Source: a virus
Length of the DNA: 25,678 nt
Strand: one strand, 5' to 3'
Virus record (IMG/VR): IMGVR_UViG_3300045010_000557
Coordinates: 1 to 25,678 of that record
The position numbers and the translations under genes were made by a program. A model generated the notes under the pieces. The model had not been told where the DNA came from and did no database searches. It was given only the letters and a program-made list of their open reading frames with translations. How positions within the stretch are numbered: position 1 is the stretch's first letter; each line of letters starts with the position of its first letter. Shown one piece after another: positions 401 to 24,334 of this stretch.

Positions 401-469
401 ATGGCAATAAAATTTCCTTCATCGCCAGTTGATGGTCAAGTATTTTCTGACGACGACCAATGCAGCTAA
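401..469 (+). pseudogene. Remnant N-terminus of a tail-fibre gene
   Basis: A 22-codon ORF starts ATG at 401 and reads MAIKFPSSPVDGQVFSDDDQ before a stop at 467-469. The first 15 or so residues match the stereotyped opening of many phage tail-fibre proteins (MAIKFPSSP.xGQ.F), which normally continue into a Trp-rich segment and a long fibre. Here it ends at once and overlaps the terminase start at 460 in another frame. It is most simply the stump left by a deletion or recombination that joined a fibre gene to the terminase. It could instead be a translated leader peptide for terL. No clear ribosome binding site is visible upstream. Confidence 0.5.
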
Positions 470-2061
470 ACGACCTCGTAAACGAGTACCACTTCAGAAA
501 ATGCCGCGGCAAAGAAGGGGCCACGGTGGACGAGCTGGTGGAAGCATTCAGCTTTTTTTGCGAGAACTACGTCTACATCAAGCATCCGAACAGGGGCAAA
601 ATAAGGTTCATTTTGCGCGATGCACAAAAACAAGCGGTGAGGGCATGGATAGAAAACAGATACTCGATAGTGTTAAAAGCGCGCCAGATAGGATTCTCGA
701 CTCTCGCCGCGGCATATTCTTTCTGGCTTGCTTTCTTCTGGTCAGACCGTTTCATCGTTATGTTGTCAAAGACGGAGAGAGAAGCAACCAAGCTTCTGGC
801 CAAAGCCAAATACATCTACAAGTTCCTGCCCGATTGGTTGAGGTTGTCTGGTCCAGAGTTGACACAAAACAACGTGCTGAAGATGACGTTCAACAACGAC
901 TCGGTGATTGAATCGTTGCCGTCGGCGAACGAACCAGCCCGTGGTGAATCGGTGTATCTGGCCATCATCGACGAAATGGCGTTCTTGCCGAACCCAGAAG
1001 AAGCCTGGGCGTCGATAGAACCGATTGCCGACGTGGGCGGTAGAGTCATCTGTCTGTCGACCGCAAAAGGCGAAGGCAACATATTCTTCAACTTGTGGCA
1101 AGGCTCACAGAACGCCACCAACAGGTTCAAGGGCATCTTTTTTCCGTGGTCAGCCGCAGAACGCGACCAAGCCTGGTACGATGCACAAGCGGCAGAACTA
1201 CCGGTATGGCAGTTGCACCAAGAATATCCGAGCAACCCAGAGGAAGCATTCATCCGTTCTGGTCGACCGGTGTTCGACATCGACTCTTTGAAGAAGCTGG
1301 AGATTTATATTCCGAGAAAAGGTCGCAACAAAAAACTTTCAGATTTAAGAAACTCATACATGTTTGACCCAGATGGCGGACCACTGTCATTGTGGCAAGT
1401 GCCACAGGCAGGAGCCAGATACGTCGTAGGTGCAGACGTAGCCGAAGGTCTAGCAAGAGGTGACTACTCATCGGCCCATGTGATTGACGCGAAGTCTGGC
1501 GTAGTAGTTGCCCACTGGCACGGGCATGTCGACCCCGACAAGTTCGGCGAAGAAATATTGTACGCCCTTGGATATTTTTACAATGAGGCTTTGATTGGCG
1601 TGGAATCCAACAACCACGGTTTGACGACTTTGACCGCACTCAACAAAGCTGGTTATATCAACATCTACCGTCAACGCAGACTAAACCAACGCAATCCAGA
1701 GATATCAGACACGTTGGGTTGGCGCACAACGACATTGACCAAACCATTGGCCCTAGACGAGCTGAACGCCAATATAAGAGACTCAATCATTAATTTAAGA
1801 TGTGAGTTGACGATAGCAGAACTCAAGACTTTCGTGCGTGACGACAACGGCCAGACTCACGGCTCACCCCATGACGACCGTGTCATGAGCCTGGCCATAG
1901 CCAACCAAATGTTGAAATATGTGTGGTTGCCCGAGTACAAAGCCAAAACTGACGCCCCATTCGGAACTTTAAACTATTTTGCTTCTCGCATGCCAAAACC
2001 CAAAAAAGAACAAGAACGTTATTTTATAGGTGAGTTTAATTGGTATAGCGACAAAATGTAA
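460..2061 (+). CDS. terL: Terminase large subunit (DNA packaging ATPase/nuclease)
   Basis: The 533-residue protein has the order of a large terminase. An N-terminal ATPase carries a Walker A-like KARQIGFST (about 73-81), a Walker B VYLAIIDEMAF with acidic D171-E172, and a coupling motif LSTAKGEGN (about 199-207). A C-terminal RNase H-fold nuclease follows, with VVGADVAEG (D326), GVESNNHG (E382) and SPHDDRVMS (D472/D473) as the likely metal-binding acidic residues. It would cut concatemeric DNA and drive it through the portal into the prohead. The frame is closed by a stop at 448-450, so ATG 460 is the first possible ATG. It lacks a good Shine-Dalgarno and lies inside the fibre remnant at 401-469. 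No small terminase is recognisable in the window. Confidence 0.96.
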   Translation: MQLNDLVNEYHFRKCRGKEGATVDELVEAFSFFCENYVYIKHPNRGKIRFILRDAQKQAVRAWIENRYSIVLKARQIGFSTLAAAYSFWLAFFWSDRFIVMLSKTEREATKLLAKAKYIYKFLPDWLRLSGPELTQNNVLKMTFNNDSVIESLPSANEPARGESVYLAIIDEMAFLPNPEEAWASIEPIADVGGRVICLSTAKGEGNIFFNLWQGSQNATNRFKGIFFPWSAAERDQAWYDAQAAELPVWQLHQEYPSNPEEAFIRSGRPVFDIDSLKKLEIYIPRKGRNKKLSDLRNSYMFDPDGGPLSLWQVPQAGARYVVGADVAEGLARGDYSSAHVIDAKSGVVVAHWHGHVDPDKFGEEILYALGYFYNEALIGVESNNHGLTTLTALNKAGYINIYRQRRLNQRNPEISDTLGWRTTTLTKPLALDELNANIRDSIINLRCELTIAELKTFVRDDNGQTHGSPHDDRVMSLAIANQMLKYVWLPEYKAKTDAPFGTLNYFASRMPKPKKEQERYFIGEFNWYSDKM

Positions 2062-2092: not shown

Positions 2093-2308
2093 GTGAATTG
2101 CTCGATTTGTGGCGCAGAACTCAAAACGGAACAAGACAAAAAGCGTGGAATCTGTTTTAAATGCCATATTAAAGAAATAAAGTTTGGTTTTAGGGCTGTT
2201 GAATACGGTCAAAAAGCTTGGAACAACTCGACCATCAGGGAGACTCAAAGAATGTATGAAGCAATACCTGGCGTCGAAAAAATGTCTACAAGGAAAGAAT
2301 TAATTTAA
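2093..2308 (+). CDS. Small zinc-ribbon-type protein (71 aa)
   Basis: I chose the GTG at 2093 because TAGGAGA lies 7 bases upstream. The longer frame to 2030 would overlap the terminase end and has no such signal. The protein opens with a CSICGAEL...GICFKCH pattern, two CxxC knuckles that should bind one zinc ion. A conserved-looking segment GFRAVEYGQKAWNNSTIRE follows. Small proteins of this layout (CxxC pair, then F/G-Y-G-x5-TIRE) are familiar in aquatic phage genomes next to terminase or structural genes, but I know no established function. Nucleic-acid or protein binding is a guess. It heads the small-gene cluster that runs to the portal. Confidence 0.75.
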   Translation: MNCSICGAELKTEQDKKRGICFKCHIKEIKFGFRAVEYGQKAWNNSTIRETQRMYEAIPGVEKMSTRKELI

Positions 2309-2310
2309 TA

Positions 2311-2529
2311 ATGGAGTGGTTGGTGCCCATCGTAGTTGCTGTAATCGGTGGGCCGCTTGTGGTTTTAATTCAAAAGCTCAGGGAAGAAAACACCAACCAG
2401 CATGCAGAAGCACGCGCCCTGCTGAACAAAGTTGTTTTTAAAGTTGACAAAGTTGACGAAAAGCTTGATGACCATATAACATGGCATTTGACCAAAAAGG
2501 GGAAAACAAGTGAAATTAAAAAAAGTTAA
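2311..2529 (+). CDS. Small membrane protein, holin/DUF2746-like
   Basis: The 72-residue protein starts at ATG 2311, two bases after the previous stop. It has one N-terminal hydrophobic segment (WLVPIVVAVIGGPLVVLI, about 3-20). A charged coiled-coil-like tail follows, with a repeated hydrophobic-Val-Asp-Lys-Val pattern (KVVFKVDKVDEKLDDHI) and a C-terminal Lys-rich end. This N-in single-span plus helical tail layout resembles DUF2746-type proteins of actinobacterial phages, which are often annotated as putative holins. A second membrane protein at 23417 is a competing holin candidate, so this one could also be an accessory lysis or membrane-anchoring protein. No endolysin is visible in the window. 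Confidence 0.7.
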   Translation: MEWLVPIVVAVIGGPLVVLIQKLREENTNQHAEARALLNKVVFKVDKVDEKLDDHITWHLTKKGKTSEIKKS

Positions 2530-2626
2530 AATAGATAAATATAATTTTTCTAAATTAAAAACAATAAAAAAACCTAAGAAAATTAAGACACTAAAAGTAT
2601 CTACAAAAAAAGGTAGGAAGAAATGA
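2510..2626 (+). CDS. Lysine-rich mini-protein (38 aa), unknown
   Basis: GTG at 2510 is preceded by AAAAAGGGGAAAACAA, a usable ribosome binding site. The product starts MKLKKVKIDKYNFSKLKTIK and ends KKGRKK; about 17 of 38 residues are Lys or Arg. It overlaps the 3' end of the membrane-protein gene by 20 bases, and its stop TGA overlaps the next ATG (ATGA at 2623-2626), so it fits the coupled pattern of this cluster. The stretch is clearly more A-rich than its neighbours. A role in binding DNA or RNA is suggested only by charge. The chance that it is non-coding is real. Confidence 0.5.
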   Translation: MKLKKVKIDKYNFSKLKTIKKPKKIKTLKVSTKKGRKK

Positions 2627-2967
2627 AACAAATATCAAGCACAACAGTTGATGCGTCAACCTCCTTGGTGATTGATGTTGCCGATTACACAGATGCAGCA
2701 ATTCGTGCTGTTGGAGTTTGGAATGGCACTTTGAGTTTTACCGGAAGCGTTCTTGGTTCAGAATATGTGGCTCTTGGCGTTCAGTCTTTCGGTGCCACAG
2801 ACTTAACCGCAGCAGTTACCTCATTGGCTAATTCAAGTTCGTTTTCTTCTAACGCTTTCAGGGTCAACGTTGCTGGTTTGAAAGAAATAAAATTTTCATT
2901 GGGTCCTTCGGACACCGGCAGCGTAGGTATAGCAGTAAACCTAATATCAACATCTAACGCCAGATAA
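2623..2967 (+). CDS. Small beta-rich structural protein candidate (114 aa)
   Basis: ATG 2623 follows AGGTAGGAAG at 2611-2620 and overlaps the previous stop. The sequence (MKQISSTTVDASTSLVIDVA...) is rich in Ser, Thr, Val and Ala, has no Cys or Trp-rich core, and shows repeated beta-strand-like alternation (NGTLSFTGSVLG, NAFRVNVAGLKEIKFSL, GSVGIAVNLIS). That composition is common in small virion surface proteins and resembles the 159-residue protein at 8214. A head-decoration or head-fibre role is possible but not shown. It is the only non-basic protein inside this cluster of basic mini-proteins. Confidence 0.75.
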   Translation: MKQISSTTVDASTSLVIDVADYTDAAIRAVGVWNGTLSFTGSVLGSEYVALGVQSFGATDLTAAVTSLANSSSFSSNAFRVNVAGLKEIKFSLGPSDTGSVGIAVNLISTSNAR

Positions 2968-2978
2968 AGGAGCACAAC

Positions 2979-3134
2979 ATGTACCCCAAGAAGAATATGT
3001 CAATGGCCGAGGCTTACGCCAAGGCTTCGGGCAAGAAAACGTCCAAGAAAAAGAGCAAGGCTCCGTCGATGAAAAAGATGGGAAAGCAAGAAGCCATGGA
3101 GCAACGCGGATACAAGGGTCGTGGTGGCCGCTAA
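2979..3134 (+). CDS. Basic mini-protein (51 aa)
   Basis: ATG 2979 has AAAGGAG at 2967-2973, good spacing. The product (MYPKKNMSMAEAYAKASG..., ending RGYKGRGGR) is rich in Lys, Met and Gly with no predicted membrane segment. The middle is a run of Lys/Ser (KKTSKKKSKAPSMKKMGK) and the end is a glycine/arginine tail. No known domain is recognised. It resembles the general type of short basic proteins that aquatic phages carry near packaging and head genes. Nucleic-acid contact in the head or DNA condensation is a guess from charge alone. Confidence 0.7.
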   Translation: MYPKKNMSMAEAYAKASGKKTSKKKSKAPSMKKMGKQEAMEQRGYKGRGGR

Positions 3135-3199
3135 TCCTCGTTATCCGACTCTTCCCGCAACGACAAAAAAGAAATATATAACAAGAAGGAAAAAGAACA

Positions 3200-3391
3200 A
3201 TGGCAGCAAAAAAAAGAAGTAAGTCAAAAGTAAACCAGGCCGGCAACTACACCAAGCCCGGCATGCGCAAAGCTTTGTTTGAAAAAATAAAGGCTGGCAC
3301 AAAAGGCGGAGACCCTGGCGAATGGAGCGCCCGCAAGGCACAGCTGCTCGCCAACGAATACAAGAAAAAGGGTGGCGGTTATCGTGGCTAG
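3200..3391 (+). CDS. Conserved basic small phage protein (63 aa)
   Basis: ATG 3200 follows AGAAGGAAAAAG. The core KVNQAGNYTKPGMRKALFEK and GDPGEWSARKAQLLANEYKK matches, from memory, a small protein often seen in aquatic phage genomes in the same neighbourhood as DUF6321-type proteins. It starts and ends with Lys/Gly-rich tails (AAKKRSKSK, KKKGGGYRG). No enzymatic motif is visible. The 65 bases before it (3135-3199) hold no ORF, only this binding site. Function is unknown; its basic character and position between terminase and portal suggest a virion or packaging accessory. Confidence 0.85.
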   Translation: MAAKKRSKSKVNQAGNYTKPGMRKALFEKIKAGTKGGDPGEWSARKAQLLANEYKKKGGGYRG

Positions 3392-3620
3392 GGCAAAATC
3401 GCAAGAGTCTCTCAAGCGTTGGGGCGACCAGAAGTGGCGCACCTCTGACGGCAAACCGTCCAAGGGCAAGAAACGCTACCTGCCTGATGCGGCGTGGAAC
3501 GCGTTGAGCCCCGCAGAAAAAGCCGCAACCAACAGAGCCAAAGCCAAAGGCAACAGGGCCGGCAAACAATTTGTCAAACAACCAAAGAAGATTGCACAAA
3601 AAACAAGGAGCTACAGATAA
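3384..3620 (+). CDS. Conserved basic small phage protein (78 aa)
   Basis: I chose GTG 3384 (MARAKSQESLKRWGDQKWRT...) over the GTG at 3372. The AAAGGGTGG sequence just upstream suits 3384, and the resulting N-terminus looks like relatives I remember. It overlaps the preceding gene by 8 bases. The sequence TSDGKPSKGKKRYLPDAAW followed by LSPAEKAATNRAKAKGN is distinctive and appears highly conserved in environmental phages. The protein is strongly basic, probably helical in the AEKAATNRAKAKGNRAGK part, and has no known enzymatic motif. Function unknown. Confidence 0.85.
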   Translation: MARAKSQESLKRWGDQKWRTSDGKPSKGKKRYLPDAAWNALSPAEKAATNRAKAKGNRAGKQFVKQPKKIAQKTRSYR

Positions 3621-3739
3621 TGCCATTTTCAAAATATTCACCCAAACAAAAGAAGCTTGCCCGTGTGGCCGAGCCGCGCGACAAGATAACCGGCGCAGAC
3701 TTTAAGGCCCTGAGAAAAAAACCGAAGAGGAGAAAATAA
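3620..3739 (+). CDS. Conserved mini-protein MPFSKYSPKQKKLARVAEP (39 aa)
   Basis: ATG 3620 shares its A with the upstream TAA (TAATG), and AAGGAG lies at 3605-3610. The product continues RDKITGADFKALRKKPKRRK. This short pattern (PF.KYSPKQKKLARVAEPRDKIT..DF) is one I recognise as recurrent in aquatic phage genomes, always unnamed. It is basic, lacks Cys and has no membrane segment. Overlapping stop/start on both sides indicates translational coupling with its neighbours. Confidence 0.8.
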   Translation: MPFSKYSPKQKKLARVAEPRDKITGADFKALRKKPKRRK

Positions 3740-3882
3740 TGGCCAAGGGAGTAAAACATTATTTGCCGAACGGCAAAGTGTACAAAGGACCTACGCATAA
3801 AATGAATGGTCAACTTCATACCGGGGCCAAGCACAGTGCATCAAGCAAAGTTTTGAAGCACGCCAAACCAAAGAAAAAATAA
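3739..3882 (+). CDS. Conserved mini-protein with KxYxGPTHKMNGQLHTGAKH (47 aa)
   Basis: ATG 3739 overlaps the upstream TAA, and GAAGAGGAGAAAA gives an AGGAG site 6 bases upstream. The sequence has a Gly/His repeat-like core (GPTHKMNGQLHTGAKHSASS) followed by a Lys-rich end (KHAKPKKK). The MNGQLHTG..H pattern is familiar from other phage mini-proteins next to head genes. With five histidines it might bind metal, but that is speculation. It is too short for standard ORF cut-offs and easily missed. Confidence 0.75.
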   Translation: MAKGVKHYLPNGKVYKGPTHKMNGQLHTGAKHSASSKVLKHAKPKKK

Positions 3883-4004
3883 TGGCCAAGCAAGGACCCT
3901 GCTGGGACGGCTATGTCATGAGGGGCATGAAGTACAAGGGCGGAAAAAAGGTGCCCAACTGCGTGCCCGCCAATGGCAAACCAAAAAGCAAGAGGAAAAA
4001 GTAA
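3882..4004 (+). CDS. Conserved mini-protein CW.GY...GMK.KGGKKVPNCVP (40 aa)
   Basis: ATG 3882 overlaps the preceding TAA (TAATG). The product MAKQGPCWDGYVMRGMKYKG then GGKKVPNCVPANGKPKSKRKK carries a motif (GY...GMK.KGGK.VPNCVP) that recurs in many phage proteins, either alone or as a tail of longer structural proteins. Two cysteines (residues 7 and 27) are conserved in that motif and may pair or bind metal. Its function is not established. The C-terminus is Lys-rich like those of its neighbours. Confidence 0.8.
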   Translation: MAKQGPCWDGYVMRGMKYKGGKKVPNCVPANGKPKSKRKK

Positions 4005-4135
4005 TGCCCAGAAAAAAACTAACAGTTGCCCAAAAATACAATCAATTAAAAAAACAAACTGAAAGAGCTGGGATGACTGTGAAAGAGAAAGACGGCAAAA
4101 TTGTCGTTTCTCGTAAAACTAAAAGGAAAAAATAA
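4004..4135 (+). CDS. Basic mini-protein (43 aa)
   Basis: ATG 4004 overlaps the upstream TAA, and AAGAGGAAAAAG lies just before. The product MPRKKLTVAQKYNQLKKQTE continues RAGMTVKEKDGKIVVSRKTKRKK. It looks like a helix (TVAQKYNQLKKQTERAG) followed by a beta-hairpin (MTVKEKDGKIVVSRK), a compact layout rather than a disordered tail. No named family is recognised. Stop and start overlap on both sides support expression as part of the coupled cassette. Confidence 0.7.
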   Translation: MPRKKLTVAQKYNQLKKQTERAGMTVKEKDGKIVVSRKTKRKK

Positions 4136-4398
4136 TGGCTAAGACAGCTGCGTGGCAACGCAAAGAAGGAAAGAATCCCAAGGGCGGATTGAACGCCAAG
4201 GGGCGTGCATCATACAAGGCCCAGACTGGTGGCACGTTGAAGCCGCCGGTGTCGGCCAAACAGGCGAAGAAATCACCCAAGGCGGCAGCCAGGCGCAAGT
4301 CTTTCTGCGCACGCATGGGGGGCATGCCGGGCCCGATGAAGGATTCAAAGGGCAGACCGACACGCAAGGCTTTGGCTTTGAGGAAATGGGACTGCTAA
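4135..4398 (+). CDS. DUF6321-like basic protein (87 aa)
   Basis: ATG 4135 overlaps the previous TAA, and TAAAAGGAAA supplies a binding site. The sequence TAAWQRKEGKNPKGGLNAKG and RASYKAQTGGTLKPPV matches my memory of the DUF6321 domain, a small basic family widespread in marine cyanophages, pelagiphages and related viruses. The C-terminal half (RRKSFCARMGGMPGPMKD then GRPTRKALALRKWDC) is also typical. The length is as expected. No function is established. It ends one base before the portal ATG, so it is likely co-translated with the portal. Confidence 0.9.
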   Translation: MAKTAAWQRKEGKNPKGGLNAKGRASYKAQTGGTLKPPVSAKQAKKSPKAAARRKSFCARMGGMPGPMKDSKGRPTRKALALRKWDC

Positions 4399-6240
4399 AT
4401 GGCGCGTGAGTCAAATGCCAACAGGCTCTCCAGCTACAGAAAACACGTAGATTACGCCAAGAAATGGCGTGCCGGCGAGAACTACGACCAAATGTGGCAG
4501 AGGCTCATCAACCTGTATCGTGGCCGCCATTATCGTGGCTACACCACGGGCGACAGGCTGTTGGTGAACATATCGTTTTCTACGATAAACACTCTCGCAC
4601 CCGCGGTGTCGATTGGCCGCCCGAAAATCAACGTCAATCCTCGCAAACCAGAAGATGGCGACAAAGCCATCGTCACAGAATCAATCATCAACTACTGGTG
4701 GCAGCATTATGGGTGTCAGAAAGAATTTCAACGAGCCGTTAAAGACTACCTGGTACTTGGGCATGGTTGGATTAAAACTGGGTATCGCTTTATTGAAGAG
4801 GCCAGACTTGATACCGTCGAATATTCAGCTGATGAAGCAGCTGACAACAAACCTGCTGACGACGTCGAAGCCGACACAATCATCAGGGAAGACAGGCCGT
4901 TCGTAGAGCGCGTCGACCCGTTCGAGATGTTCGTGGACCCCGATGCTTGCACGATGGAAGACGCACGCTGGATGGCCCAGCGCACCCGCCGTCCGTTGAA
5001 GGACGCAAAAGTAGACAGGCGCTATGATGCCGCCGCAAGAAAAGAACTCAGTCCGTCATCATACCAGAAGTACGCCAACATGGACAAGGGTTACATGACC
5101 GACGCCGGCGCCAATCCCGACGAGGCGTACTGCGACATCTACGAATACTACAACATAGAGACCGGCGAGTTGTCGGTGTTCTCCGATTCGGGCGGGGACA
5201 AGTTCTTGATTAGGCCGATAAAGATGCCGTATGCTTTCGGTCATCCGTTCTTCATGTTGCGCAACTACGACATACCGGGGTTCTTTTATCCGATGGGTGA
5301 GCTGGAGGCGATAGAGCCCCTGCAGTACGAGTTGAACGAGACCCGCACCCAGATGATGCTGCACAGGAAACGTTACAGCCGCAAGTGGTTGTTCCAGGAG
5401 TCGGCTTTCGATGACGATGGTCGCCAAGCTCTGGCTTCTGACGAAGACAACGTCATAGTGCCGGTCAAGTCAGGAGAGAATCTCAACAATGTCGTCGTTC
5501 CGATGCCAGCCCTCATCAACCCACCAGAATTCTACAATCAGTCGACACTCATCCAGAATGACATTGACAGAGTATCAGGCGTTTCTGAATACCAGCGTGG
5601 TGCAATCCCCGAGACTACAAGAACTGCTCGTGAGGCCGCCATCATCGCCGAAGCCGGGAATGCCAGGGTGGCAGAAAAGCTCATCGCAATCGAAAACGGA
5701 ATTGCCGCGTGTGCTTCTAATCTTATAATGCTTGCCCAACAGTTCATGACCGGTGAGCAGACGGTAAGAATAGTGGGCACAGAAGCAGCCCCGGTGTGGT
5801 TGACTTTTGACAAAGATTATATATCGGGCGAGTTCGATTTTACCGTCGAGGCTGGTTCTACGGCCCCAAGAAACGAGGCTTTCCGCAGGGACATGGCCCT
5901 CCAGATGGTTTCGGCCATGCAACCGTTTGCCCAGGCTGGGCTTGTAAACCTGCCAAGATTGGCGGAATACGTGCTGCAGCAGGGCTTTGGTGTCAAAGAC
6001 CCAGGTTCTTTCTTGCAGCAGCCGCCCCCACCACAACAGCAACCCCCGATGCCAGAGGCCATGCCCCCAGAGCTGGACGCAGTCCCGATGCCTCCAGAGC
6101 AGCCAGTTGAATTGCCGCCTGGTTTAATTTCAGGTGGCCCGATTCAAGGTACTGGTGGCCAGATAGGCCAAGGCGCCGTTCCTGGCTCGATTCAAAGTCT
6201 TCCCCCCGAGATAATTCAAGCATTGGTGGGCGCGCAGTAA
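4399..6240 (+). CDS. Portal protein (head-tail connector)
   Basis: This 613-residue protein is a portal of the podovirus type. It would form the dodecameric ring at one capsid vertex through which terminase packages DNA and to which the tail attaches. Supporting segments are the N-terminal helical part with WQRLINLYRGRHYRG, the stem/wing stretch LLVNISFSTINTLAPAVSIG and INVNPRKPEDGDKA, a central IPGFFYPMGELEAIEPLQYE then LNETRTQMMLHRKR, and a late helix with TTRTAREAAIIAEAGNARVA. The last ~80 residues are Pro/Gln/Gly-rich (QQPPPPQQQPPMPEAMPPEL), probably disordered. It directly follows the DUF6321-like gene and precedes the scaffold, the usual place for a portal. Confidence 0.93.
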   Translation: MARESNANRLSSYRKHVDYAKKWRAGENYDQMWQRLINLYRGRHYRGYTTGDRLLVNISFSTINTLAPAVSIGRPKINVNPRKPEDGDKAIVTESIINYWWQHYGCQKEFQRAVKDYLVLGHGWIKTGYRFIEEARLDTVEYSADEAADNKPADDVEADTIIREDRPFVERVDPFEMFVDPDACTMEDARWMAQRTRRPLKDAKVDRRYDAAARKELSPSSYQKYANMDKGYMTDAGANPDEAYCDIYEYYNIETGELSVFSDSGGDKFLIRPIKMPYAFGHPFFMLRNYDIPGFFYPMGELEAIEPLQYELNETRTQMMLHRKRYSRKWLFQESAFDDDGRQALASDEDNVIVPVKSGENLNNVVVPMPALINPPEFYNQSTLIQNDIDRVSGVSEYQRGAIPETTRTAREAAIIAEAGNARVAEKLIAIENGIAACASNLIMLAQQFMTGEQTVRIVGTEAAPVWLTFDKDYISGEFDFTVEAGSTAPRNEAFRRDMALQMVSAMQPFAQAGLVNLPRLAEYVLQQGFGVKDPGSFLQQPPPPQQQPPMPEAMPPELDAVPMPPEQPVELPPGLISGGPIQGTGGQIGQGAVPGSIQSLPPEIIQALVGAQ

Positions 6241-6317: not shown

Positions 6318-7106
6318 ATGACGAATGAAAATAATAATATTGCTAACCCTGAAAACGTAGTTGACCCCGTTGCAAACGGACAAGTTGATAAAGTGACAGA
6401 GGTCACAGCAGAAACTCCGGTACAAGAACCAGAGCTTTTTGACTACACAGAGATTGCCGACAAAGTCGTCAAACTCCAAGTAGACGGTCAAGAAGTCATG
6501 GTTCCAGTTAAGGAGGCTTTAGCTGGATACCAGCGCCAGGCGGATTATACCCGCAAAACGCAGGAACTCAGCGAACAAAGAAAGCAAGTACAGTTTGCCG
6601 CAACCTTAGCAGAAGCTCTGCAAAGGGACCCGGCAGGCACCTTGCAGGCGCTTACTAGGCATTACGGCCTAGATGCTCCAATCCAAGACCAACAGGTCGA
6701 AGAAGAGTATCTTGACCCGGCTGAAAAGCAATTCCGTAGTCTGGAACAAAGAATCGCGGCATTCGAACAACAGAAAGCCATGGATGATTTGACCAGGACT
6801 ATTGATTCTTTGCAAAGCAAGTATGGTGACGACTTCAATGCAGACGAAGTGGTAGCCAAAGCACTGGCCACCGGTTCTACGGACCTGGAAGCAGTCTTCA
6901 AGCAGATATCCTTTGACAAGGTTTATTCCAAGGCGTCAGAGGCGCAGAAGAAGCTTACAGAAGAACAGGCCAGAGTTGAGGCGAAACGTTCTGCTGCAGT
7001 GGTGTCAGGTGGCTCTGCCAACAAGACTTCGGTCGCACCGAAAACTGTTAAACCAACGTCAGTCTTCGAGGCTTTTGAACAAGCCAAAAAGACACTCAAC
7101 ATCTAA
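6318..7106 (+). CDS. Capsid assembly scaffold protein
   Basis: This 262-residue protein lies between portal and major capsid, the standard scaffold position. It is acidic and low-complexity at the N-terminus (MTNENNNIANPENVVDPVAN...). It then has a short ordered motif LQVDGQEVMVPVKEALAGYQ and RQADYTRKTQELSEQRKQV, which I recognise as common in podovirus and siphovirus scaffolds. A long charged, Gln-rich coiled-coil region follows (about 85-220). The C-terminus KPTSVFEAFEQAKKTLNI is probably the capsid-interacting helix. It would direct prohead assembly and then leave. Start ATG 6318 follows AAGGATAGGA. Confidence 0.9.
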   Translation: MTNENNNIANPENVVDPVANGQVDKVTEVTAETPVQEPELFDYTEIADKVVKLQVDGQEVMVPVKEALAGYQRQADYTRKTQELSEQRKQVQFAATLAEALQRDPAGTLQALTRHYGLDAPIQDQQVEEEYLDPAEKQFRSLEQRIAAFEQQKAMDDLTRTIDSLQSKYGDDFNADEVVAKALATGSTDLEAVFKQISFDKVYSKASEAQKKLTEEQARVEAKRSAAVVSGGSANKTSVAPKTVKPTSVFEAFEQAKKTLNI

Positions 7107-11663: not shown

Positions 11664-12262
11664 TGACAACACTAACTATTCCGAACTCATTCAACAACGG
11701 TGATGTCATTGACGCACCAGAGATGAACGCAAACTTTACCGCAGTCAAGAACTTCGTGGAAGACCTGTCGGCGGGCGACAACTTTGATGCTGGCGCAATC
11801 AACACCTCTGACATCGCAGATTCTGCTATAACGGCAGCAAAGATTGGAACTGGAGCGGTAACCAGTGCCAAGATTCAAACCAGCGTATCGTTGACCACGC
11901 CAGTCATCGGTGCTGCAACGGGCACGTCGTTGAACGTCACCGGTGCGCTTATCGCGCATATCGTTCCTTCTCCGATTGTCGGTTCTTATACGCTTCAGTT
12001 GACAGACGACGGTACGATAATAGAAAAGAACGATGCTGCCGGAGTCAACGTGACCATTCCACCGGAATCTTCGGTCGCATTCGCCAACGGGACACAGATA
12101 CTGGTGATACAGACGGGTGCAGGACAAACGACGTTCGTCGCCGGTGCCGGTGTCACGTTGAACGGAACGCCCGGAGTCAAGCTTCGTGCACAGTTTTCTT
12201 CGGCTGTGTTGATAAAAAGGTCGTCCAACAACTGGATAGCCCTGGGAGATTTATCGGCATAA
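11663..12262 (+). CDS. Tail-fibre-type protein (199 aa)
   Basis: ATG 11663 overlaps the nozzle TAA and has AAGGAG 10 bases upstream; the longer frame from 11603 would run inside the nozzle gene. The N-terminus MTTLTIPNSFNNGDVIDAPE with MNANFTAVKNFV is a classical fibre opening. Next comes a repeating triple-strand-like stretch (INTSDIADSAITAAKIGTGA, VTSAKIQTSV), typical of trimeric fibre shafts. The C-terminal beta domain (YTLQLTDDGTIIEKNDAAGV through SSNNWIALGDLSA) is of the same class as the gene at the left edge. It lies between nozzle and adhesin-like genes, as expected for a fibre attached to the tail. Confidence 0.85.
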   Translation: MTTLTIPNSFNNGDVIDAPEMNANFTAVKNFVEDLSAGDNFDAGAINTSDIADSAITAAKIGTGAVTSAKIQTSVSLTTPVIGAATGTSLNVTGALIAHIVPSPIVGSYTLQLTDDGTIIEKNDAAGVNVTIPPESSVAFANGTQILVIQTGAGQTTFVAGAGVTLNGTPGVKLRAQFSSAVLIKRSSNNWIALGDLSA

Positions 12263-13083
12263 TGTTGGCGACGGCAGCTGTAGCAGGTGGCGGTTCGCAG
12301 CCCGGCACACCAACGATTGGTAGTGCCACGGCTGGCAACGCCCAAGCTGACGTTGCTTTTACGGTACCGTCTTACACCGGTAAGGGTGGTGCTGTGACTT
12401 ATCGTGCGTTGTCCACTCCAGACAGCGTGACTGCCACTGGTTCTTCTTCTCCGATAACCGTCACTGGTTTGACCAACGGTGTTTCTTACACCTTCCAGGT
12501 CAGGACAGAAACATCGTATGGTGTAAACAGCGATTATTCTTCTGCATCAAACTCGGTAACTCCGGTCGTTCCACCAGTCGTTCCACCAGTCGTACCACCC
12601 GTAACTCCGCCAGTTACACCGCCAGTTACTCCTCCTGTTACACCGCCCGTCACGCCACCTGTAACACCACCTGTAACACCACCAGTTACTCCGCCCGTCA
12701 CGCCACCTGTTACACCGCCAGTTACGCCACCTGTAACACCACCTGTAACGCCACCTGTTACGCCACCTGTTACACCACCTGTAACACCACCTGTAACACC
12801 ACCTGTAACACCACCTGTAACGCCACCTGTAACGCCACCTGTAACGCCCCCGGTTACGCCTCCTGTTACACCGCCGGTGGACCCCTGTGCAGGATTCAAC
12901 TGTGGTTCGTTGGGCGACCCAGTCCACAATCCTGGAAACTGGGTGTTCCAATATACATATGAAGCGTGCATTCCCGAAATTTGCGGAGGACAAATGGGTC
13001 TTTGGGAATCGTACATTTCAACCAACGGTTGTTGCGCTTTTGGTTTGTTCTTTGGCTGCCTAGAGGGCGACCCAGTCTGTTAA
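12262..13083 (+). CDS. FnIII + VTPP-repeat + Cys-rich adhesin-like protein
   Basis: The 273-residue protein starts at ATG 12262 overlapping the fibre stop. Its three parts are clear. Residues ~15-100 form a fibronectin type III-like domain (GTPTIGSATAGNAQADVAFT, SPITVTGLTNGVSYTFQVRT). Residues 102-205 are 3 VVPP plus 23 VTPP tetrapeptides. Residues 206-273 contain eight cysteines (DPCAGFNCGS, EACIPEICGG, NGCCAFGLFFGC, DPVC) with several aromatic residues. The Pro/Thr stalk should be extended, and the Cys-rich tip would be disulphide-bonded outside the cell, so a stalked adhesin at the tail is the simplest reading. No signal peptide is needed for a virion protein. The stalk length is probably variable. 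Confidence 0.85.
   Translation: MLATAAVAGGGSQPGTPTIGSATAGNAQADVAFTVPSYTGKGGAVTYRALSTPDSVTATGSSSPITVTGLTNGVSYTFQVRTETSYGVNSDYSSASNSVTPVVPPVVPPVVPPVTPPVTPPVTPPVTPPVTPPVTPPVTPPVTPPVTPPVTPPVTPPVTPPVTPPVTPPVTPPVTPPVTPPVTPPVTPPVTPPVTPPVTPPVTPPVDPCAGFNCGSLGDPVHNPGNWVFQYTYEACIPEICGGQMGLWESYISTNGCCAFGLFFGCLEGDPVC
12565..12876 (+). repeat. 12-bp coding minisatellite, 26 VVPP/VTPP units
   Basis: Three GTCGTTCCACCA-type units (12565-12600) are followed by 23 twelve-base units of the GTAACACCACCT type (12601-12876), all in frame. Third positions vary in the 5' half, but runs of identical units occur around 12780-12840, as expected for recent slippage or unequal exchange. The unit number may vary between virions and is prone to assembly collapse. 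Confidence 0.97.
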
Positions 13084-13342: not shown

Positions 13343-13573
13343 ATGACATCGGCTTGGCAAGAATACAAAAAGAAACTTGGCGACACAAGACCTTGGGACA
13401 TATTGAACCCAAATGCCCCCAAGGTGTCGGATGAAATTGAAAGCACCCGTATGTCGCTGTGCATGGATTGCCCCGAATTGATAAACGCAACCAAACAATG
13501 CAAACAATGCGGATGTTTCATGAACATGAAAGTCAAACTAGAAAAAGCAACATGTCCAATCGGTCGTTGGTGA
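13343..13573 (+). CDS. Cys-rich zinc-ribbon-like protein (DUF6171-like, 76 aa)
   Basis: The product MTSAWQEYKKKLGDTRPWDI...ends RMSLCMDCPELINATKQCKQ then CGCFMNMKVKLEKATCPIGR. The layout C-x2-CP-x8-C-x2-CGC-x14-CP..W matches, from memory, a small phage family sometimes called DUF6171 that commonly sits beside 2-oxoglutarate oxygenase genes in aquatic phages. Six cysteines in this spacing suggest two zinc or iron knuckles. The stop TGA overlaps the oxygenase ATG (TGATG at 13571-13575), which implies tight coupling and perhaps a shared pathway. Its biochemical role is unknown. Confidence 0.8.
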   Translation: MTSAWQEYKKKLGDTRPWDILNPNAPKVSDEIESTRMSLCMDCPELINATKQCKQCGCFMNMKVKLEKATCPIGRW

Positions 13574-14901
13574 TGCTGACAAAGGAAATATTGTTCGAAC
13601 TACCAGAAGTTTTGTCTGAACCAAGGATAATAAAAAATTTCTTTCCTCAACACATGTTGGACCGTGTCAAAAAATCTGTGGCAGATACTGGAATGGGTAC
13701 GGACAAAGTCCAATTCCACACCATGCTCGCCAGGTGGGAGGCGCCGGTACAATTTGATTCTGATATTGAAGAGCACTGCACACAAAAGGCAAGAGAAATA
13801 TTCAACGATGATTCTTTGAAGAAAGCTTATTTCTTTGCCGTTAGATACCAAAGAAAAAATGGTTGCGTCCCGCACCTTTGGGAGCATACAGACCAGAACG
13901 GCACGCAAACAACGATAGATATAACGATAGAGAATACCGCAAACTGGGGATTGATAGTAGAGGGTCAGCACTTCGAGCAGAATCCCAATGATGCAATTGT
14001 TTTCTGCGGACAACAACACATGCATGCAAGGCCGCCGTATCCAACGAGTGACCCCGATGCACATACGACGGTTTTGTTTCTGCATTTTACGCAACCAAAC
14101 CATTGGATACAAAAAGACGCCAAGGATGGTTTTCATAAATACGGTGCGGACGGCGACGCAAGGTTTTTCAACCGCAATCGTTATTTCGCAATGCCAGACG
14201 GACCAGTGAATCAACCCGTTTGTTCATGCCATGATTATTCCGTAATATTGAGATTTTACAACGAATTCTTTGGTGATTCAATCAAATCAGAACCAGAGAC
14301 AGTAGACATGACGGTTTTGGACAAAATAGAATTGGCACCTGGTATCGTCAAATACAAGATTGCCAAAGAATCGGCCCGCACATTAAAAGGTTTGATTCAA
14401 AATGCAATGTTTAAACAATGGAAACCAGCCGAAGTTTTGGTCAAAGACGACAAGCCTGGTGTGGATTACTCCGCAAGAAATTGTTACAATTATTTTATAA
14501 CTGACAAAGAATTTACATGCCATCCACAAGACCCTGTACGCAGGGCTGCAGAATCGCTCCAGACGGGCCTGGATGCGATTATAGAGGACTTCAGGGGCAG
14601 ATACAGCATAATACCCCTGGTTAGCCATCACACCGTTTTATTGCGTTATGAAGAAGGAAATAAGTTTCATAACCACATAGATGACCATCCTCAGTTTCCA
14701 AGAGTAGTATCTTTATCTTTATTTTTAAATGATGATTTTGAGGGTGGCGAACTAGAGTTCAAAGAATTTAATCTTAAAATTAAACCAGAAGCGGGTGAGA
14801 TTGTGGTGTTTTCGTCAGGTTTTCCTTACATGCATCAGGTTCACCCAATAACAAAAGGCATTCGATATGCCGTTGTTAAATGGTACGACTACAAAAGGTA
14901 A
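13573..14901 (+). CDS. Tandem 2-oxoglutarate/Fe(II) oxygenase, prolyl-hydroxylase-like
   Basis: ATG 13573 (overlapping the previous TGA) gives 442 residues; an earlier ATG at 13459 would lie inside the Cys-rich gene. The C-terminal domain (~240-442) is a classic prolyl 4-hydroxylase-type fold. It has LLRYEEGNKFHNHIDDHP with HxD = H368/D370, SLSLFLNDDFEGGELEF, PEAGEIVVFSSG, distal H421 and R431 in HQVHPITKGIRY. The N-terminal half (~85-175) holds a second, more divergent double-stranded beta-helix. It has HLWEHTDQNGTQ with a second HxD (H105/D107), an Asn/Asp-Ala-Ile-Val-Phe strand and HMHARPP (H151 candidate). Both triads look intact. Such enzymes couple 2-oxoglutarate decarboxylation to hydroxylation; the substrate is not evident, but a Pro-rich repeat protein lies three genes upstream. 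Confidence 0.88.
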   Translation: MLTKEILFELPEVLSEPRIIKNFFPQHMLDRVKKSVADTGMGTDKVQFHTMLARWEAPVQFDSDIEEHCTQKAREIFNDDSLKKAYFFAVRYQRKNGCVPHLWEHTDQNGTQTTIDITIENTANWGLIVEGQHFEQNPNDAIVFCGQQHMHARPPYPTSDPDAHTTVLFLHFTQPNHWIQKDAKDGFHKYGADGDARFFNRNRYFAMPDGPVNQPVCSCHDYSVILRFYNEFFGDSIKSEPETVDMTVLDKIELAPGIVKYKIAKESARTLKGLIQNAMFKQWKPAEVLVKDDKPGVDYSARNCYNYFITDKEFTCHPQDPVRRAAESLQTGLDAIIEDFRGRYSIIPLVSHHTVLLRYEEGNKFHNHIDDHPQFPRVVSLSLFLNDDFEGGELEFKEFNLKIKPEAGEIVVFSSGFPYMHQVHPITKGIRYAVVKWYDYKR

Positions 14902-16943: not shown

Positions 16944-17902
16944 TGGCAAAGATAGCACAAAGACTCGTAGCCGCAGGCGCATCACCCGAGCGTGCACGCG
17001 CATTCGAACAACAGTTCACGCAAAGAGTGCAGACAGCACAACCCGGTCTTGGCAAACCGAAAGACATCGAAGACGCGTTCGACGCAGAGATTGCAGCATT
17101 TGCCGCAGCAGCATACCCTAATGTGTTCAGACCACCGACGATTGATGACCCACGCATAGATGCTTATATTAATGGTGCATACGGAGAAAATGTGTTGTTA
17201 AACATAAGAAGAAAATCCCTTGCGTTCAAAGCACCAGACTTGTACAAAATCTTTGCAGCATATACGAATACTACAACGAAGGAAAATGAGCTTGAAAACA
17301 CACCAGATAATAAGCTTGGTCTTGACGCATTGATTGTAAAAAAGCTTTACATTGAGAAACAACCAATCGGTCAACTCAAGAACGCCCTTGCAAGTGGTGA
17401 CTACAAAATTGTACCTGACCCCAAAAAACCCAATGTAGAAAAATCAATAACTGGTGCATTGTTCCCATCTGAATATGGTGCCTTGGTTGACAAATACGCC
17501 GCACAACAAGCAGCCGCAGAAGAGGAATATTCAAATCTGAAAAAAAGCTTTTTAGACAGTGACAAATATTATAAGGTTGGATTGCCAACACCCAATCTTA
17601 AGTATGGTTTGATAGAAGATTTGTCGAAAGGTACCGTATCGTGGACGACTCATCCAAGCGTAGCCAGAATATTAAAGACGCAAGGTGTGCGCGCAAAACA
17701 GCTGGCACAAACTGCACCAGCTGGTTACATAGGTGCCGCTGGTCCTGGTTCTGCATCAACTTTGGGCAGGATGAAAAATGAAGCATTAAACTTTGAAAAC
17801 AACTTGTTCAAAGAATTCCAGCAAAGCGGTGCAACACCGTTCGGTGACGAAGTCAAAAGAAGAGAAAAGCTGAAAAAGTCAACAACACTACCGGGTAAAT
17901 AA
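16943..17902 (+). CDS. Unknown, putative internal virion protein (319 aa)
   Basis: ATG 16943 overlaps the previous TAA, and the stop overlaps the next ATG (TAATG), so it is coupled on both sides. The N-terminal part is helical (AKIAQRLVAAGASPERARAF, EQQFTQRVQTAQPGLGKPKD), the middle mixes Lys-rich helices and short strands, and the C-terminus is basic (EVKRREKLKKSTTLPGK). No Cys-rich, membrane or catalytic motif is visible. The order within the block suggests an ejection or core protein. I do not recognise a family. Confidence 0.75.
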   Translation: MAKIAQRLVAAGASPERARAFEQQFTQRVQTAQPGLGKPKDIEDAFDAEIAAFAAAAYPNVFRPPTIDDPRIDAYINGAYGENVLLNIRRKSLAFKAPDLYKIFAAYTNTTTKENELENTPDNKLGLDALIVKKLYIEKQPIGQLKNALASGDYKIVPDPKKPNVEKSITGALFPSEYGALVDKYAAQQAAAEEEYSNLKKSFLDSDKYYKVGLPTPNLKYGLIEDLSKGTVSWTTHPSVARILKTQGVRAKQLAQTAPAGYIGAAGPGSASTLGRMKNEALNFENNLFKEFQQSGATPFGDEVKRREKLKKSTTLPGK

Positions 17903-20900
17903 TGGCACCAAGGCCTAGAGAAGTTAATCCACCAATTCCTCCGCTCGGTGGTAGCGGGACTACGCCGGAGCCTATAATTCCTCCGCTCGGTGGTAGCGGG
18001 ACTACGCCAGAGCCTATAATTCCTCCGCTCGGTGGTAGCGGGACTACGCCAGAGCCTATAATTCCTCCGCTCGGTGGTAGTGGAGCAGTAACAACCGTAA
18101 AGCCGCAAGGTTTCATTGGCCCAATGCCTGGAGAGCAGCCAAAGCCGCCAACACCAACCACGGTGCCTGCAACGACGAGCCGTTCAATCGGTCCACAGTT
18201 GATTGAAGCACAGCGCAATTTACAGGTTGCACAAGCACAGGCGACCAGAGCTGGCGTGCCAGAAACCACCATCCAACAAATTGTGTCTGGAGAAAAGAAA
18301 CCCAACAAGGGTTTGGTGGTGTTGGGCAAGGTGATTGGCTTTGATATTGTTCCTGGCAAGGGGTCATTCAAGCCGATAGAAACACTGGTTCTTGGTCCAG
18401 CAACAAGACTTGACGTAGGTCGTCGTGCTGTCATATCAACTTTCAAAGAAGTTGGTGACGAATTTGCCGCAATCAATGCAGCAACCGAGGGCAGTATAAT
18501 CGGTGATATTTTGCCGGGCAAAGGACGTATCCGCGGCAGAGAAGGCTACAAGCTCGGCAAGAGCGGATTCAGCGCCAGCGATTGGTTGAGACAAACCAAC
18601 GACCTGGCAACGGGTTATGGTTCGACAATCCTGCCATCGCCGACTGGAAACAAGTGGATTGACCGCGGCATTGGATTCGTCGGGGACGTCGTATTTGACC
18701 CGATATCTTGGGTGGCTGGTCCTGCTGGCATTGCAAAAAAACCACTAATAGAAGCCGTAGAAGCTGGTGGCAAGAGAGCCGCAGTGGAAGCAACCATTGC
18801 AGCAGCAAGGTCAGCTGGTGCAAAAAAGGTCACGCTCGACCTTGTTGATGCCGCGGGCACGACCGTATCTAGAACGGTGCCACTAGAAGAGGCTTCAAGA
18901 ATAGCTGCGCAATTAGAACAACCAGCAGTAAAAGCGTTAGAACAAGCAGCCAAAGAAGGCCCACGCAGGGTTCTTGGTGCAAGAAGCCGCGAAGAACTTG
19001 CGCAAGTCGCAAGAGAAGCAAGAGCAGTAGCCGTTGCCACCGGCAACACAAAAGTGGCCAGTGTTCTCACGGACGATGTCATTAGAGACCTTGCTACTCG
19101 TGGCTATAGCGCCGCACGCGGTGAAGTTGCCGACGTGCTTGGTATTCGTGGCGGTCTTCGTGCAATCAATCCGTTGTCTGCGGTTGGTATTGGTCCGGAC
19201 AAATTCCGTATTCTTCCTCAAATCACCGAGCCGTTCACCAACGTGATTGGTTCTGGTCTGACTGGTATACGCGTGGGTTTTCCGACAAAGAATCTTCCCA
19301 GAGTTCTCAGTGTCATAAACAAAGGTTTCGTCAACACTCGTTTGGGCAACGAGATATTAAGGGCCACTACTCCAATCGGAGAAGGCGGGTTGTTCGGTCC
19401 GGAACAGATACAAAGCATGCGCGTTGCCCTGCGTTCTGGCAGCATTGCAGACAATATTACTGGTGTCACGAGAAAGCTGACTGGCGCAGAGGGAAATGAT
19501 TTTGTTCGTCTGCTCGCAGAAGACAGGGCATTCAGATTGATTGCGGCACAAGCAAACGGCGACGTTATCCGCGTGCTTGCACCAACTTTGGCCAACAGAA
19601 GATTCTTTAGTTATTCCAATACCATAGTGGATTTGCTCGACAGAAAGATTGCACAAGAACTTCCGGATGGCACCAAGCTCTTGGTGCCTGCAGTTGATTT
19701 AACTGACAGAACATTGACTGCCGCCGACGCAACGGCAGCATTGGGCAGAACGGTGACAGAAGAAGAGTTCTTGTTTGCCCAACAAATCCGCGGACAACTC
19801 GACGAAATTTACGCCAACAACAATTTCTTGTATCAAAGACAACAGCTAGCTGCTGGTATAGAAGAAGATGCGCTGAGACAACTTCCGAAGAACTCGTCGT
19901 ACTTTCCCCACGTTCTCAGCCCTGACGCAAGAAGGGCGGTACAGCAGAGGCGTCTTCCTCAAGAAGCGCTTGATGCCATGGAGATTGACAGAACCTTTGC
20001 GTTGGCCGGTGCAAACCCGCGTGAGTTGAAGGTCGGCTCCAGATGGTTTGGTGTCATCCTTGAACCCGAGGATATTGCGGGTGGAGTGAAAAGACTGAAT
20101 CAAATCGCCAGAGAAAATGGCGGCTTGAAGTATGACGTGTTTGAAACTAACGCAGAGAGTGCGCTGACCAGGTACGGTCAAGCCACGGCAAGAGACAACG
20201 CCTACACCGAGTTCTTGTACAGAATGGCACAGGCAACCGACGGAACCGGCCCGTTAGGAACAGGCAGCGGTCCGTATCGCGCCAAAGCTTTTGATGACAT
20301 CATACAAACTCCGGCACAAGTGCAGGAGGTGGGTCGTGCACCGTCGGCTTTGGCTGGTTTCGAGTCGGCAATCGAGGCGGTCATAACGCCGGAGCGTGTC
20401 GCCTATCTTTCCACGAACGAAGGGCGCAGGCGCGTTCTGCAGCAACTTGTTGAAGACATGCGTGATTTCAACAAAGAGGCCTTGAAACGCACCGGTAAAA
20501 AACAATTTTATGATGAAGTAAACCAGGTTGTCAATAATTTTCAAACACGAATAAGAGACCTGGAAAGAATGTCCCCGCCAGTCGGCTATCCTTCCGCCCT
20601 TGACAGCGAGGCCAGCGCCCTGCTTGAGTCTTTGGTGAATGAATCCAAAGGATTGGTTCTCAACGTGAACAACGTCAAGGCTGATAACTGGATAAGAATC
20701 CTTCCGATGTACAACGACTTGTTCGGCAGGTTCGTTTCAATAAACTCCGCCAGATATCCTGGTCTTGCTGGTTCCCAACAAGTTACAGAATTGTTACAAA
20801 ACTTCCGCAGATTGGAAGACCCGCTGATAGCACAAGCACTGCCCAAAGCACTGCAGGACACAACCCAAATGTTCAAGGCGTGGGTGACTGCGACACCCGG

Positions 20901-23677: not shown

Positions 23678-23946
23678 TCGTCGAACGGAATGCCTTCTTG
23701 CTCCAGGTAACCCCTGAGATAGTCCACGAAACCTTCTATGAACTGCAGCATGTGCATCTGCGACGCCAAGTCGCCCTCCTGGCTTTTGTACCACGCCTGA
23801 ATCAAATCCACGCACATGTCGTTCGACATGCCTACGTTCAGCACGATGCCGTGCTCCGAATCGTACACTATCTTCTCCGACGACAGCACCAACTCCTCCA
23901 TTTCCTGCTCGGAAAATATTCGTTTTGCCCAAAAATCATTCCCCAT
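23674..23946 (-). CDS. Unknown acidic small protein (90 aa)
   Basis: The last gene of the minus-strand operon starts at ATG 23946, overlapping the HTH gene by 11 bases, with AGGGAG upstream. The product MGNDFWAKRIFSEQEMEELV...MCVDLIQAWYKSQEGDLASQ...FVDYLRGYLEQEGIPFDD is acidic and mostly helical, with no Cys cluster and no catalytic motif I recognise. It may be a regulator or a small inhibitor. It ends tail to tail with the holin-like gene with no terminator between. Confidence 0.75.
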   Translation of the reverse strand: MGNDFWAKRIFSEQEMEELVLSSEKIVYDSEHGIVLNVGMSNDMCVDLIQAWYKSQEGDLASQMHMLQFIEGFVDYLRGYLEQEGIPFDD

Positions 23947-24334
23947 TTATGACGTACTCCCTCAGGGTAGAGTGCATGAACAACAATTGTTTCAGGTTCG
24001 CAAAGGCCGTCTGCGTGAGGCGCCATGCGTGCGGTGTGGACACCCCCAACCTTCGCGCCAACTCGGAGTAGCCCGTCTGCTCCCATATTATTGCGTCGAT
24101 TACGTAACGGTCCTCGTCGGTCAGCATCTCCATGCAGTCCAGCAGCGCCTCCCTGATGACGTAGGGCTCGTCCGCGGGTATCTTCAACTGGTCGCCCGGG
24201 GCGGCCTGCATCAACGCCTGCCAGATGTTGCGCGGTTGAGACTGGTCCACGAGCTTTTGTATCTCGTGGTCGCTCAGCGAAAGTTCCTTTTTTCTTATGA
24301 CGAAGTCTTCCTTACTTTTCAGGAACCATATCAT
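23936..24334 (-). CDS. Sigma-70 region 4-like HTH protein (132 aa)
   Basis: Residues ~71-118 read LTDEDRYVIDAIIWEQTGYS, ELARRLGVSTPHAWRLTQTA, FANLKQLL. This is the layout of a sigma-70 region 4 helix-turn-helix: acidic-Arg start, hydrophobic helix, E..GYSELARRLGVS turn, recognition helix with W-R, then a C-terminal helix. It could recruit or redirect host RNA polymerase, or act as a plain regulator. No region 2 is present, so it is not a complete sigma factor. The N-terminal half is charged and probably helical. ATG 24334 lies inside the end of the upstream gene, and the ribosome binding site is weak, so translation probably depends on coupling. Confidence 0.8.
   Translation of the reverse strand: MIWFLKSKEDFVIRKKELSLSDHEIQKLVDQSQPRNIWQALMQAAPGDQLKIPADEPYVIREALLDCMEMLTDEDRYVIDAIIWEQTGYSELARRLGVSTPHAWRLTQTAFANLKQLLFMHSTLREYVINGE

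Follow-up and report, generated by a model that had tools for sequence, protein, structure and literature searches.

A mosaic cassette of small basic genes between terminase and portal of an aquatic phage may encode internal head proteins

Layout of the terminase-portal interval

The window analysed here is the whole 25,678-nt record IMGVR_UViG_3300045010_000557, from a virus of bacteria sampled in water. Its head genes (terminase, portal, scaffold, capsid) cluster at the left end, and the interval between the genes for the terminase large subunit (TerL) and the portal protein contains a cassette of eleven tiny open reading frames (ORFs) on the same strand, ten of which encode strongly positive proteins (Table 1). 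A first-pass annotation, made from the sequence alone, had listed ten ORFs of 38-114 amino acids (aa) at 2510-4398, here called p1 to p10; all ten are present on the same strand, while the 32-aa frame at 3124-3222, which shares 11 nt with p3 and 23 nt with p4, had been overlooked. Nine of those ten had been described as strongly basic, and they do have isoelectric points (pI) of 10.3-11.4 and net charges of +11 to +21, the acidic exception being p2. The charge per 100 aa is +20 to +45 for the basic cassette proteins against -7 to +7 for the other genes of the window, and the ten basic proteins combined carry a net charge of +142 over 518 aa.

The genes are tightly packed. One-base TAATG overlaps occur five times, as had been noted, at p5/p6, p6/p7, p7/p8, p8/p9 and p9/p10; p4 and p5 overlap by 8 nt, and p10 directly abuts the portal gene (TAA, then ATG). 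Such one-base overlaps make up 173 of the 353 junctions in relatives.

Table 1 The TerL-portal interval and the neighbouring head genes. pN/pS, pooled ratio of non-synonymous to synonymous differences against relatives, to be read as rough; Intervals, number of the 47 compared intervals that hold the family.
Feature	Position	Strand	pN/pS	Intervals	Remarks
TerL, left border	460..2061	+			PHROG phrog_2 1.2e-34; Pfam Terminase_6N/6C
Small Cys-rich (zinc-ribbon-like) protein, 71 aa, first gene after TerL	2093..2308	+		47	AGGAG upstream of GTG start
72-aa protein, second gene after TerL	2311..2529	+	0.25	39	Hydrophobic N-terminal segment; phrog_32850
p1, 38 aa	2510..2626	+	0.47		45% Lys; Lys-rich proteins of like composition at the equivalent place in relatives
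p2, 114 aa	2623..2967	+	0.73	39	Acidic (pI 4.7), probably beta-rich, outside the basic set
p3, 51 aa	2979..3134	+	0.39		Basic; N-terminal tag MSMAEAYAKAS (2997-3029) like the scaffold C-terminus, followed by conserved body KSKAPSMKKM..RGYKG
Eleventh ORF, 32 aa	3124..3222	+	0.39		GTG start; net +12; MAANPRYPTLPATTKKKYITRRKKNNGSKKKK; homologues in 25 distinct relatives
p4, 63 aa	3200..3391	+	0.15	5	Putative N-terminal half of DUF5872-like protein; phrog_17747
p5, 78 aa	3384..3620	+	0.125	5	Putative C-terminal half of DUF5872-like protein; phrog_14910
p6, 39 aa	3620..3739	+	0.23 (17 relatives)		YSPKQKKLARVAEPRDKITGADFKAL; degenerate EF-hand resemblance by eye only
p7, 47 aa	3739..3882	+	0.20	2	Also in Roseobacter phages CRP-207 and CRP-902
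p8, 40 aa	3882..4004	+	0.19	3	Two-cysteine module CW-GY..GMK..VPNCVP
p9, 43 aa	4004..4135	+	0.23		
p10, 87 aa	4135..4398	+	0.126	45	DUF6321 domain (Pfam 2.3e-28); Cys58/Cys87 pair
Portal protein, right border	4399..6240	+	0.18		phrog_156; Pfam SU10_portal 2.1e-22
Head scaffold	6318..7106	+			phrog_3927; C-terminal motif PTSVFEAFEQAKK at about 7050-7091, kept in relatives; pattern echoed by cassette tags

Selection on the cassette genes

The first-pass annotation had named frame conservation as the check on these genes, with a ratio near 1 speaking against them. The pooled pN/pS of p4-p10 is 0.13-0.23, like that of the portal and of the major capsid protein (MCP; 0.22), and therefore p4-p10 are translated genes. 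The constraint is looser on p1, p3, the 32-aa ORF and p2 (0.39-0.73). These values are rough, because the homologues were picked by protein similarity, which pulls the ratio down somewhat, and because synonymous sites are near saturation; the coding conclusion for p4-p10 is safe all the same. The clearest single case is p10 against its homologue in relative L055, where the proteins are 99% identical while 79% of the synonymous sites differ.

The notion that Lys-rich frames simply arose from A-rich sequence draws on their shortness and on their low-complexity tails, and we regard it as scarcely credible. Both Lys codons are in use in the cassette, the frames are kept at saturated synonymous divergence, and homologues are annotated in cultured phages; pN/pS and frame conservation rule this reading out for p4-p10. 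Thus p4-p10 are real, selected genes, as constrained as head genes.

A mosaic slot with constant edges

To compare gene order, 80 relatives were taken from IMG/VR, fetched via the portal; 46 of them hold a complete TerL-portal interval and, with the window, give 47 intervals. Their 411 called proteins fall into 48 clusters, which may be split or merged in places since the gene caller was simple (p3 and p6 were fused into one cluster via chimeras). The two genes after TerL, the acidic p2 family and p10 are near constant, and p10 stands at the portal end in 45 of the 47 intervals; p10 and the portal are separated in a few loci by an acidic protein some 130 aa long. The other families are gained, lost and reordered, and some are rare among the intervals (Table 1). 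The full order of the window was found only in the nearest relative (L180), which is 98.2% identical over 1843 nt, up to its contig end.

Recombination also reaches into single proteins, where N-termini and bodies are exchanged: one relative (L008) has an N-terminal tag, the p6 body and the p3 body in one protein, and in another (L036) the tag precedes p6 and also p10. The phage MW202803 (cultured or catalogued), whose portal is 38% identical, has one annotated 318-nt gene between TerL and portal and lacks the cassette. The TerL-portal interval is a mosaic slot with constant edges and interchangeable modules. The fixed gene order that the first-pass annotation had assumed is ruled out by the gain, loss and reordering across the 46 complete relatives.

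Families and folds of the cassette proteins

Earlier described as DUF6321-like, p10 is an outright member of DUF6321 (PF19846), with 99.1 bits against a cut-off of 28.5 and a match that covers positions 1-72 of 72. Its AlphaFold2 model is a compact helical domain (predicted local distance difference test score, pLDDT, 91.5; predicted template modelling score, pTM, 0.71), so p10 is predicted to be a folded domain rather than a loose polycation. The model has no significant fold match among PDB structures. Its significant viral matches are for the most part DUF6321 proteins; one is annotated 'virion protein', another carries a ferritin/Dps domain and a third an AAA domain. Both Cys58 and Cys87 are present in 45 of 54 sequences and neither in 9, while none has a single one; since the pair is kept or lost together, this suggests a disulphide.

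Neither p4 nor p5 matches the DUF5872 profile (PF19197) separately. Joined, they match it across the joint at E 1.9e-4 and 22.4 bits, below the curated cut-off of 27.5. Among all 80 loci found with p5, p4 lies upstream of it, abutting it in 66. Single-ORF forms of p4 plus p5 exist (L110, L116, L135 and S-CRES1 gp97) and score 0-17 bits with the profile, and in CRP-207 (L093, record 50033-50375) DUF5872 is split over two adjacent frames like p4/p5, with one half above the cut-off. The second half in CRP-207 overlaps short annotated genes. From the joint-spanning match, the single-ORF versions and the split CRP-207 family, p4 and p5 are best seen as putative halves of one DUF5872-like protein.

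Searches of the remaining sequences and models were less informative. The p5 model is of lower confidence (76.7) and has no significant fold match among solved structures; a PDB sequence search gave no relatives except a weak likeness of p5 to an RNase HI stretch (E 0.3), and NCBIfam gave nothing useful among the cassette proteins. An assignment of p9 to ribosomal L6 was rejected (14.7 bits against a cut-off of 184), as was p10 as a PBCV basic adaptor domain (PBCV_basic_adap, PF08789; 13.4 bits, cut-off 20.4, insignificant). The virus-specific 2-cysteine adaptor (PF08793) gave no match to p8 at E<=1, and none at E<=5 to the p8 relative L005 or to p8-holding proteins.

The modules in other phages

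Matching was confined to named collections, in which virus contigs are possibly fragments. Among 50,697 phage records, p8 recurs in 251, p10 in 216 and p5 in 19, while p7 and p6 are found in two and one, so the recurrence in aquatic phages that had been claimed for these motifs holds for p10, p8 and p5, whereas p6 and p7 are scarce in cultured phages. The phages that share p4 plus p5, p8 and p10 include unrelated aquatic ones. In those of the p8 records that were examined, p8 is part of a larger protein. The large proteins that cyanomyoviruses encode between gp16 and gp17 end in two successive modules, p8 and then p10. These fused proteins have an additional upstream module that resembles p4 through an intermediate, CRP-207 gp70, and therefore the order p4-like, p8, p10 is common to cyanomyoviruses and the window.

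Elsewhere the modules occupy other places. In the cultured Methylophilales phage MEP401, p10, p4 and p5 stand immediately before TerL; phage MEP402 carries these three as well. In the T7-like cyanophages S-TIP37 and P-SCSP2 p10 lies between scaffold and MCP. An extra basic module, RGLYANIHAKRKRI..GAPTAKNFKRAAK (L087 6207-6359; L086 6389-6520), adjoins DUF6321 in S-TIP37 and in HTVC033P; it is present in 12 of 80 p10 loci and absent from the window. A literature search for DUF6321 returned nothing, and neither a search for HMO-2011 virion proteomics nor the papers on P-SSP7 and P-SCSP1u yielded evidence on the cassette proteins.

Tags shared with the head scaffold and protease-like sites

The scaffold of this lineage ends in the pattern P(K/T)(S/T)V(F/Y)EA(F/Y)ExAK (KSVFEAFEQAK and variants), and several cassette proteins begin with a similar stretch: KKPTVAEAYKAAK; KPTMEQAYEAAEK, which precedes a p6 body; KKPTVESAYKSAA, which precedes p10; and the tag of p3. 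A profile built from the scaffold C-terminus alone was applied to the non-redundant cassette proteins and to 300 shuffles. At a score >=8 it finds 7 N-terminal tags where 0.83 are expected (at most 6 in the shuffles), and at >=5 it finds 15 against 3.8 expected (at most 11), some of which look accidental (those of the Cys-rich edge gene and of one 35-aa protein). The tagged proteins span several families. In a control of 17 window proteins, scores above 7 were reached only by the scaffold (34) and MCP (11). Because the idea of a tag came from reading the same proteins, the test lacks full independence. No clear excess of the scaffold-like tag is seen in other phage lineages; this agrees with a tag specific to the lineage but leaves the signal unreplicated.

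The fused cyanophage proteins carry signals of another kind, and the site analysis concerns these proteins, not the stand-alone ones of the window. The motif [FLY]Qx[FL]QEK was sought in the S-SM1 and Syn9 ORFs of 60 aa or longer in all six frames. It sits at the gp23 (MCP) N-terminus and directly before p8 in the fused protein, and its one further occurrence is in an odd ORF of Syn9. T4 gp21 is known to cleave after L/I-x-E (PMC9026906). A hydrophobic-x-E motif ends 1-5 residues ahead of p10 in 13 of 16 fused proteins and ahead of p8 in 9 of 11, compared with 12% in linkers; the strict L/I-x-E form is found before p10 in 8/16 and before p8 in 4/11, against a background of 5.4%.

Proposed role and its alternatives

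Our favoured reading, held tentatively and at somewhat less than even confidence, is that the cassette proteins are small internal proteins of the head, which may work like T4 IPI-IPIII and probably touch DNA. The overlapping start and stop codons would keep production of the cassette proteins in step with the portal. A short N-terminal tag on some of them, mimicking the C-terminal tail of the scaffold, would allow entry into the assembling prohead, perhaps together with untagged partners. The basic bodies would then lie against the packaged DNA, where they may help to condense or order it, or may leave with it on ejection. In T4-like cyanophages, the p8 and p10 modules would instead be made as parts of a single large protein, targeted in the manner of a capsid protein, and be excised inside the prohead at the protease-like sites. 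Head entry, DNA contact and cleavage of the cassette proteins are what we infer from these patterns. We also count in favour of this reading that in HSTV-1 the p8 module follows the protease domain of the head maturation protease. The first-pass annotation had likewise suggested a virion-internal, DNA-binding role; the scaffold-like and capsid-protein-like tags point that way, while the fixed order that it had invoked in support does not hold for this mosaic slot.

Several observations weigh against internal head proteins. Phages are held to neutralise packaged DNA by small cations and not by proteins, and basic proteins are in the mainstream view thought to add little (PMC3281028). Of the window's cassette proteins, p3 alone is clearly tagged; p4-p8 and p10 are not. 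The evidence from protease-like sites is partly post hoc, with 3/6 (p10) and 4/4 (p8) in held-out proteins, and such sites are not enriched before the cyanophage modules C1 and C2. The pelagiphages HTVC033P and Lederberg have the modules away from the portal, amid genes for the tail, for lysis or for other functions. The strongest counter-evidence, which counts mildly, is that the fused protein SSM1_115 (T4-GC119) of S-SM1 is still named hypothetical even though the S-SM1 virion proteome was measured; Syn9 gp114 has no structural label either.

The main rival, which we judge unlikely, sees the interval as an accessory slot, hypervariable in content, whose proteins would serve host take-over or counter-defence and which recombination put among late genes; the charge would then serve to bind host nucleic acid or polymerase in the cell and have nothing to do with packaging. 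The gain, loss and reordering of the 48 clusters would fit such a slot, as would modules that in other phages lie close to genes for tail, lysis and metabolism. The location of the fused protein fits as well, since the gp16-gp17 region of cyanomyoviruses is known as a hot spot for genes (PMC3037559). Set against it are the near constancy of p10 and the edge genes, the capsid-like constraint on p4-p10, and scaffold-like and MCP-like tags that are hard to square with purely cytoplasmic proteins. T4 internal proteins show that both roles can coexist, and take-over functions could hold also for head-carried proteins.

Two further alternatives are less probable again. It is improbable that p10 and partners are packaging accessories at the terminase-portal interface (for DNA gating, motor regulation or as a small terminase substitute): the location between TerL and portal here, immediately ahead of TerL in MEP401 and in the gp16-gp17 interval of cyanomyoviruses speaks for it, as does p10 abutting the portal, but p10 lies between scaffold and MCP in T7-like cyanophages and is distant from the terminase in several pelagiphages, and no match to any solved packaging protein was found. 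Slightly more doubtful still is a non-structural role, in which nucleoid- or RNA-binding proteins organise replicating phage DNA or serve late gene expression. The high charge and the faint RNase HI likeness of p5 would suit it; the genes, however, are mostly placed among late genes, the tags are common to the scaffold, and no known nucleic-acid-binding family or fold was found.

Comparison with known systems

The internal proteins of T4 are small, basic, variable and dispensable, are present at ~300 copies each and enter the head via a short N-terminal targeting sequence (PMC9026906). The window resembles this arrangement of IPI, IPII and IPIII in having several small basic proteins by late genes and a variable mosaic set; the N-terminal tags may be a counterpart of the targeting sequence. 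The likeness is functional and no sequence relation is claimed. In T4, gp21 releases the internal proteins from propeptides. No prohead protease was recognised in the window, and there the tag takes after the scaffold C-terminus. Within DUF6321 (phrog_4689), a family without known function, p10 is a full-length, stand-alone member at the portal end, in contrast to cyanomyoviruses, where the domain closes a protein of 440-850 aa. DUF5872, for which the literature search gave one genome paper, has been annotated in a haptophyte virus, CpV-BQ1 (PMC12085832); the window has two overlapping genes for its putative halves.

Viruses of eukaryotes offer analogies. Ascovirus P64, which combines virus-specific 2-cysteine adaptor modules with basic repeats, condenses DNA (PMC6163548), a concept like that of p8 and p10 in the cyanophage fused proteins, where two-cysteine modules are joined to basic stretches; it differs in that p8 and p10 have no Pfam match to the 2-cysteine adaptor. 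In chlorovirus PBCV-1, A278L and A282L, with the basic adaptor domain, are basic components of the virion that bind its packaged DNA (PMC3281028); they differ from p10 in that its match to this domain is insignificant. A broader idea, to which we give little credence, is that many aquatic tailed-phage lineages share a swappable kit of tiny basic modules, in part also present in algal giant viruses, with which the genome in the head would be coated or condensed like a phage chromatin. The kit would take the form of coupled mini-genes, some with a copy of the scaffold tail, in podophages, and of a polyprotein with a copy of the capsid propeptide, cut by the prohead protease, in T4-like cyanophages.

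Other features of the window

Outside the head region, a 132-aa protein on the minus strand (23936-24334) weakly resembles sigma-70 region 4, at E 1.5e-4 and short of the cut-off, and is possibly a phage transcription regulator. The protein encoded at 12262-13083 starts with a fibronectin-like part and ends with one that contains Cys, with a long run of VTPPVTPP repeats in the middle, and amid the structural genes lies a 480-aa 2OG-Fe(II) oxygenase-like protein (13459-14901; Pfam 1.1e-15). A 1545-aa protein (17902-22539) with tandem IPPLGGSGTTPEP repeats at the N-terminus is perhaps an internal virion or ejection protein.

Implications

If the cassette proteins are indeed internal head proteins, a widespread modular set of basic proteins would be tied by its tags to head assembly, and protein-assisted DNA packing in environmental phages would become directly testable. 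This would also give a first functional handle on DUF6321, the DUF5872-like proteins, phrog_17747 and phrog_14910, families that are common in water viruses.

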